In this document: one piece after another, positions 23,590 through 24,961 of the stretch
Numbering within the stretch: the first letter of the stretch is position 1
Layout of the letters: every line of letters begins with the position of its first letter
Translations under genes and position numbers: made by a program
Assembly (NCBI GenBank): GCA_021155855.1
Contig: JAJNAZ010000020.1
Coordinates: 1-42,523, forward strand
Length of the DNA: 42,523 nt
From: Solirubrobacterales bacterium
GTDB taxonomy: Bacteria; Actinomycetota; Thermoleophilia; Solirubrobacterales; 70-9
Direction of reading: 5' to 3'
Notes under the pieces: generated by a model
The model's database searches: none
The model's input: only the letters and a program-made list of their open reading frames with translations
Told to the model about the DNA's origin: nothing

Positions 23590-23862
23590 GTGCCGATCTA
23601 CGAGTTCCGCTGCGAGGCGTGCGGGGAGCGGTTCGAGGTGCTCGCCGACCTGGGCACCGAGGCGGTCGAGTGCCGTGCCTGCGGCGCCCCGGGGGCCCGG
23701 CGGGTGCTCTCCGCCCAGGCGGCCCCGCTGACGCACGTCCACTCGCCCGGTGCGACCCGCAAGCAGGAGGCCCGCAACGCCGAGCTCCGCCGGCGGACGA
23801 AGGCGGAGTTCAAGGCCGCCCGCAAGCGCGTCCGCCCGGCGTGGGGGGGCGAGCGCGGGTGA
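23590..23862 (+). CDS. FmdB-type zinc ribbon protein
   Basis: 90 residues from GTG 23590, fixed by the -10 just upstream. The start MPIYEFRCEACGERFEVL with a second pair CRACGAPGARRVLS is the FmdB/CxxC_CxxC zinc ribbon (two CxxC knuckles, residues 8-11 and 28-31). The tail is basic and helical (LRRRTKAEFKAARKRVRP). Such proteins are predicted regulators or nucleic acid binders, with no defined role. It is co-translated with the uracil-DNA glycosylase through a GTGA overlap. Confidence 0.9.
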   Translation: MPIYEFRCEACGERFEVLADLGTEAVECRACGAPGARRVLSAQAAPLTHVHSPGATRKQEARNAELRRRTKAEFKAARKRVRPAWGGERG

Positions 23863-24533
23863 GCACGTCGGCCGAGCCGCGGCGCGAGGCGCTGGTCGAG
23901 CTCTACCGCGAGGTGTCGGACTGCACCCGCTGTCCCCTGCACGCCGGGCGCACCAAGGCCGTCTTCGGATCGGGAAATGCCGACGCCGAGCTGCTCTTCG
24001 TCGGTGAGGCGCCGGGGGCGGAGGAGGATCGCCAGGGGCTGCCGTTCGTGGGCCGCGCCGGCCAATTGCTCAACCAGCTGCTGGAGGGGATCGGCATGAG
24101 GCGCGAGGACGTCTTCATCGGCAACATCCTCAAGTCGCGCCCTCCCGGCAATCGCGACCCCCAGCCGGAGGAGATCGACGCCTGCTGGCCCTACCTCGAG
24201 CGTCAGATCCAGCTGATCGAACCGCGGGTGATCGCGACGCTGGGCAACTTCGCGACCAAGCGGATCACCGGCAGCCAGGTCGGGATCACCCGTTGCTGCG
24301 GGACGCCGCAGGTGCACGAGATCGCCGGCCGGACCGTGTTCATCTACCCCCTCTTTCACCCGGCCGCGGCGCTGCGGACGCCGTCCGTGCTCGACCGACT
24401 GCGCGAGGACTTCTCCCGCCTCCCGTCGTTGCTCGCCGAGCCGCTGCCAGAGCTCGAGGCGCCTGCGGGCTCGGCGAACGAGCCGGTCGGCGCCAGACGC
24501 GACCCGGCGAGCCAGCTCGACCTCTTCGGTTGA
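23859..24533 (+). CDS. family 4 uracil-DNA glycosylase with beta-clamp-type C-terminus
   Basis: 224 residues from a GTG in a GTGA overlap. Iron-sulfur Cys begin with CTRCPLHAGR (Cys22, Cys25), with others near DACWPY and TRCCG. The uracil-site motif is GEAPGAEEDRQGLPFVGRAG, split around residue 50, and HPAAAL supplies the second catalytic motif. It excises uracil from DNA. A linker of about 25 residues rich in Pro/Ala/Glu leads to a terminal QLDLFG. QL(S/D)LF is the bacterial sliding-clamp-binding consensus, so I infer tethering to DnaN. The stop overlaps the tsaE TTG. Confidence 0.93.
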   Translation: MSTSAEPRREALVELYREVSDCTRCPLHAGRTKAVFGSGNADAELLFVGEAPGAEEDRQGLPFVGRAGQLLNQLLEGIGMRREDVFIGNILKSRPPGNRDPQPEEIDACWPYLERQIQLIEPRVIATLGNFATKRITGSQVGITRCCGTPQVHEIAGRTVFIYPLFHPAAALRTPSVLDRLREDFSRLPSLLAEPLPELEAPAGSANEPVGARRDPASQLDLFG

Positions 24534-24961
24534 GCGCCGAGGTCACCGAGAGCGCGGCGGAGACCGAGGCGGTAGGCGCCCTGCTCGCCGCCGGCCTTGG
24601 GCCCGGGGACGTGGTCCTGGTCAGCGGCGAGCTCGGCAGCGGCAAGACGACCCTGATCCGAGGCGCCTGCCGCGCGCTCGGGGTCGAGGGCGCGATCGCC
24701 TCCCCGACGTTCACCATCGGGCGGCGCTACGAGGGCGCGGTAGCGGTCTCGCACCTTGACCTCTATCGGCTCGAGGACCTCGGCGACGAGGACCCGGCGC
24801 TGCTCGATGACTACCTGACGCCCGACGCGGTCGCCTTCGTCGAATGGCCCGAGATCGCCCGCGAGCTGCGGCTCCGAGACCGGGTCAGGGTGGCGCGCAC
24901 GGTCGAGCTCAGGCACGCGGGCGGCGACCGGCGCGAGATCGAGATCGCGCCAATCGCCTGA
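24530..24961 (+). CDS. tsaE: tRNA threonylcarbamoyladenosine biosynthesis ATPase TsaE
   Basis: 143 residues from TTG in a TTGA overlap with the glycosylase. Walker A is GELGSGKTTL (about residues 33-42), then SPTFTIGRRYEG, HLDLYRL and the Walker-B-like VEWPE motif, all TsaE landmarks. It is the ATPase that cycles the TsaB-TsaD complex making t6A37 on ANN-decoding tRNAs. The partner genes tsaB and tsaD follow, but a lipoprotein gene on the opposite strand interrupts the run. Confidence 0.95.
   Translation: MSAEVTESAAETEAVGALLAAGLGPGDVVLVSGELGSGKTTLIRGACRALGVEGAIASPTFTIGRRYEGAVAVSHLDLYRLEDLGDEDPALLDDYLTPDAVAFVEWPEIARELRLRDRVRVARTVELRHAGGDRREIEIAPIA

Follow-up and report, generated by a model that had tools for sequence, protein, structure and literature searches.

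The window analysed here is a stretch of 42,523 nucleotides (contig C48) from a Solirubrobacterales genome of 2.83 Mb that is 96% complete. It contains a gene for a family 4 uracil-DNA glycosylase (UDG), whose features are listed in Table 1. The gene product scores 207.8 bits against the family 4 model TIGR00758 (UDG_fam4, cut-off 125.3), in line with the assignment made in the first-pass annotation, and scores under the cut-off of the UdgX model TIGR03914. Downstream, a tsaE-like open reading frame (24530-24961) with the P-loop GELGSGKTT overlaps the UDG stop codon. The UDG-tsaE gene order is common to Collinsella (Actinomycetota), the top match in a plasmid collection.

Table 1. Features of the UDG gene in the window
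Feature	Position	Strand	Basis and remarks
Family 4 uracil-DNA glycosylase gene	23859..24533	+	TIGR00758 match; 224 aa, GTG start, TGA stop
Catalytic domain, folded, residues 1-192	23859..24434	+	pLDDT and conserved motifs
Pro/Ala/Glu-rich linker, residues 193-218, predicted disordered	24435..24512	+	pLDDT; variable length in relatives
Putative clamp-binding pentapeptide QLDLF, residues 219-223, with Gly224 after it	24513..24527	+	Sequence, orthologue conservation
Last Gly codon and TGA stop	24528..24533	+	Sequence

The catalytic motifs GEAPG (residue 49) and HPAAAL (residue 167) are conserved in the window UDG. In an alignment of 33 sequences Glu50, Asn89 and His167 are invariant; the alignment places Asn89 (motif 3) and His167 (the HP of motif 2) at what we take to be the known catalytic positions. 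Catalytic roles are assigned to an Asn and a His in family 4 UDGs (PMC5387724). Of the four cysteines that hold the iron-sulphur cluster in family 4, Cys22, Cys25 and Cys109 are present. The third is replaced by Ser93 (24135-24137), and the local sequence reads KSRPPG instead of KCRPPG. Among the 147 class relatives at least 28 have a serine at this position, and a cysteine is present in 74 of 80 enzymes from other phyla. Judging from these alignments, cluster binding may be altered in the Ser93 subgroup. Residues 146-147 (24294-24299) lie in the sequence ITRCCG, where relatives including the one from the same genus have ITRVRG; this is either a private change of the window genome or an assembly error.

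The UDG ends in RRDPASQLDLFG, and its last ten residues are DPASQLDLFG. Translation of the reading frame thus confirms the C-terminal QLDLFG noted in the first-pass annotation, although the range given there, 24516-24533, is shifted. The codons run from CAG (24513-24515) through CTC, GAC, CTC and TTC to GGT (24528-24530) and TGA (24531-24533), so 24516-24533 takes in LDLFG and the stop codon but leaves out the codon for Gln. QLDLFG belongs at 24513-24530. The linker before the motif, AEPLPELEAPAGSANEPVGARRDPAS, has the Pro/Ala/Glu composition that had been described, and its flexibility agrees with the AlphaFold model, in which pLDDT is ~97 per 10-residue block in the core (residues 11-190) and 48-60 in the tail beyond residue 200. 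The tail is predicted to be disordered, as would be expected of a flexible tether.

The ending resembles the peptides by which bacterial proteins bind the β sliding clamp, DnaN. The consensus given in a 2024 review is Q-phi-x-[L/M]-[F/L], and the strongest form of it is QLxLF (PMC11139829). QLDLF matches this consensus, as it does the form QL(S/D)LF cited in the earlier reading. A close parallel is E. coli Pol II, whose C-terminal peptide TLMTGQLGLF binds the β clamp with a KD of 1.7 uM and has been crystallized with it (3D1E) (PMC11139829). Both motifs are C-terminal pentapeptides, and QLDLF differs from QLGLF at the free third position. However, Pol II is a polymerase, and the window protein is a glycosylase with an extra Gly after the Phe.

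The window genome encodes one DnaN, adjoining dnaA and recF. When the 18 pocket positions named in the review are compared with E. coli, 10 are identical (R152, L155, T172, R176, L177, P242, N320, M362, P363 and R365) and 5 conservatively changed. The non-conservative changes are G174S, H175Y and R246Q; G174 is a variable position of the pocket. The solved structures closest to this DnaN include M. tuberculosis DnaN entries; together with the Collinsella match, this makes Actinomycetota the most likely phylum of the organism. DnaE1 of the window genome contains QGSIF and DinB contains QLELPL, which we infer to be clamp motifs; because of them, the DnaN pocket is evidently in use in this organism.

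We read the C-terminal tails systematically in 147 UDG orthologues from the organism's class and 60 from the wider phylum. A strict motif, Q[LM]x[LIMF]F inside the final 14 residues, was found in 129 of the 147 and 46 of the 60, where shuffled tails gave expectations of 0.04 and 0.02; a relaxed motif, Qxx[LIMF][FLW], was found in 137 and 55, with about 1 expected in each sample. Since these orthologues share ancestry, the counts should not be taken as independent trials. The same-genus orthologue has an identical ending, DPASQLDLFG. Among relatives the linker is poorly conserved and between 15 and 93 residues long. Within the class, pairwise identity averages 62% for the core, 24% for the linker and 84% for the motif, the last value being inflated by the restriction to motif-bearing rows. 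The last residues are thus conserved in close orthologues, a point on which the first-pass annotation had made its proposal depend, while the linker has diverged. The commonest ending in the class, QLGLF, is the same as that of E. coli Pol II and is encoded by 35 different DNA spellings; therefore it is the peptide, not the DNA, that is kept. Substitutions in the motif obey, in the aligned sequences, the rules of clamp motifs: L/M at position 2, any residue at the third, then L/F/I/M, then F/W. Five class relatives, all of one family (f8; L145, L151, L152, L154 and L155), end in QLPLW or QLLLW, clamp-like endings in which Trp replaces Phe.

Within the window genome the ending is singular. QL[GDE]LF is matched by DNA at four places in any frame, and only at the window UDG does the match lie at the C-terminus of a protein. 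A wider C-terminal pattern gave five matches genome-wide, with a convincing gene end only at the same gene. We rejected the other candidates for a C-terminal QLxLF: one is a frame of 37 residues, and the rest are unconvincing or lie internally. The motif is absent from the UdgX paralogue (L002) and from two weaker superfamily members (L003 and L004), and no recognisable family 1 Ung is encoded in the genome. For these reasons the family 4 enzyme is probably, as judged from gene content, the main uracil glycosylase of the organism.

Outside the phylum the picture is different. A scan of bacterial and archaeal genomes with an alignment headed by a Thermotoga enzyme supplied 80 family 4 UDGs from many phyla. 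They are the loci closest to that enzyme and not a random draw. The strict C-terminal motif is present in 2 of these 80, those of Carboxydothermus islandicus (QLKLF) and Anaerolinea sp. (QMTLF). An N-terminal clamp motif as a substitute in other phyla was considered and rejected, since such motifs are rare (4 of 80) and the matches loose. In a FastTree phylogeny built from 287 cores, which does not fix the root, a slightly wider motif state requires 14 changes. Because the motif is present nearly throughout the phylum and absent elsewhere, the simplest reading of these distributions would be that it is old in the phylum and was lost repeatedly. Loss is clearest in the family to which the window belongs, where two genera have dropped the motif and mostly the linker too (g2: L027, L029, L031-L033, L157 and L158; g5: L021 and L030), and their UDG genes mostly end shortly past the catalytic domain. 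The tail is also absent from some lineages elsewhere in the phylum, such as Collinsella. Readthrough of a stop codon in the motif-less relatives was considered, BLAST having shown a TGA within some matches, and rejected: none of the frames holds a motif downstream, the tail is missing, and most of these relatives continue with a tsaE-like frame. Since g2 and g5 do without the tail, clamp tethering is probably a gain in efficiency or fidelity rather than essential, and these two genera offer natural tail-less mutants for comparison.

Taken together, we consider it very likely that QLDLF at the C-terminus works as a clamp-binding motif and that the disordered tail docks the UDG on DnaN for repair typically at or near the replication fork; the motif, the tail and the pocket are what the analysis shows, and clamp binding, fork recruitment and hand-over are the steps that we infer. 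The tail would dock in one of the two DnaN peptide pockets, and the catalytic domain could then scan nearby DNA while the tail stays docked. This would keep the enzyme on newly copied or soon-to-be-copied DNA. Uracil arising from dUTP incorporation or cytosine deamination would be removed on clamp-carrying DNA, in the typical case at the fork or close to it, and the resulting abasic site may be passed to other repair enzymes on the clamp. The tethering to the fork proposed in the first-pass annotation is supported as far as sequence reaches.

A related possibility is that clamp binding mainly stimulates or coordinates repair wherever clamps persist, with uracil removal uncoupled from moving forks. 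We regard this as somewhat improbable, though it has precedents. The β clamp stimulates actinobacterial NucS, and the Streptomyces enzyme needs it for action on G/U substrates; Nei2 and XthA of M. tuberculosis also bind the clamp, which raises Nei2 activity (PMC11109965, PMC9690074). EndoMS/NucS, Nei2 and XthA are likewise repair enzymes that bind the β clamp in Actinobacteria; however, they belong to enzyme families other than UDG, and NucS was not found in the window genome. Fork coupling and repair at any clamp would leave the same sequence signature. Clamps are, on the other hand, densest at sites of ongoing replication, which may speak for the fork.

The hydrophobic C-terminal peptide might instead be kept for another partner or for stability, for instance as a protease tag or as a contact for the neighbouring TsaE product. 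A peptide conserved at the C-terminus could suit any partner, and a tsaE-like P-loop lies downstream of the UDG in 105 of 144 class loci and 46 of 60 wider-phylum loci, and in none of the 80 from other phyla. We find this explanation very improbable, as the substitutions follow the clamp-motif pattern, identical peptides are proven clamp ligands, and the Carboxydothermus and Anaerolinea enzymes bear the motif although no tsaE-like gene lies next to theirs. A chance hydrophobic ending produced by high-GC composition has a negligible probability and is ruled out by the shuffled tails and the orthologue sampling: five-residue motifs do arise singly by chance, as the three further QL[GDE]LF DNA matches in the genome illustrate, but 129 occurrences against 0.04 expected in the class, and retention of the peptide despite synonymous changes and variable linkers, do not fit such an origin.

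Docking of the UDG on DnaN would have counterparts in the other domains of life. In eukaryotes the uracil glycosylase UNG2 is linked to the sliding clamp. In archaea, the UDGs of Pyrococcus furiosus, Sulfolobus solfataricus and Pyrobaculum aerophilum bind PCNA (PMC4858679), so the analogy with archaeal glycosylases drawn at the outset is documented. Like the window protein, for which this is predicted from sequence, these enzymes are uracil glycosylases on a sliding clamp; their partner, however, is PCNA and their peptide a PIP box, which is internal in P. furiosus (AKTLF). The family 4 UDG of a Desulfurococcales archaeon in our collection (L299) ends in GRTILDYF, a C-terminus that, by its residues, resembles a PIP box and may be an archaeal counterpart of the window tail. 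Bacterial EndoQ homologues have a putative β-clamp motif in their C-terminal region (PMC4858679). They likewise repair deaminated bases, but are endonucleases, not glycosylases.

The known clients of the bacterial β clamp comprise polymerases, proteins of mismatch repair and a small number of others. Neither glycosylases nor uracil come up in the text of the 2024 review (PMC11139829), and our search of the open-access literature found no report of a bacterial uracil glycosylase that carries a clamp motif or is bound to the clamp. The window UDG is therefore likely, from its ending and those of its orthologues, a new bacterial clamp client that is conserved across a phylum. The mechanism is well precedented; the member and its phylum-wide conservation appear to be new.

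Our study suggests that a whole bacterial phylum ties uracil repair to the machinery that copies DNA, much as in humans and archaea. More tentatively, and with slightly more doubt than belief, we propose that clamp-tethered uracil removal is ancestral in most of the phylum, Ung-less lineages included. The family 4 UDG would then be a replisome accessory and a bacterial counterpart of UNG2, with an origin separate from that of the PCNA links in archaea and eukaryotes. A family 4 UDG whose clamp motif is retained throughout a phylum would make replication-coupled uracil repair common to all three domains of life, achieved through different clamps and different peptides.
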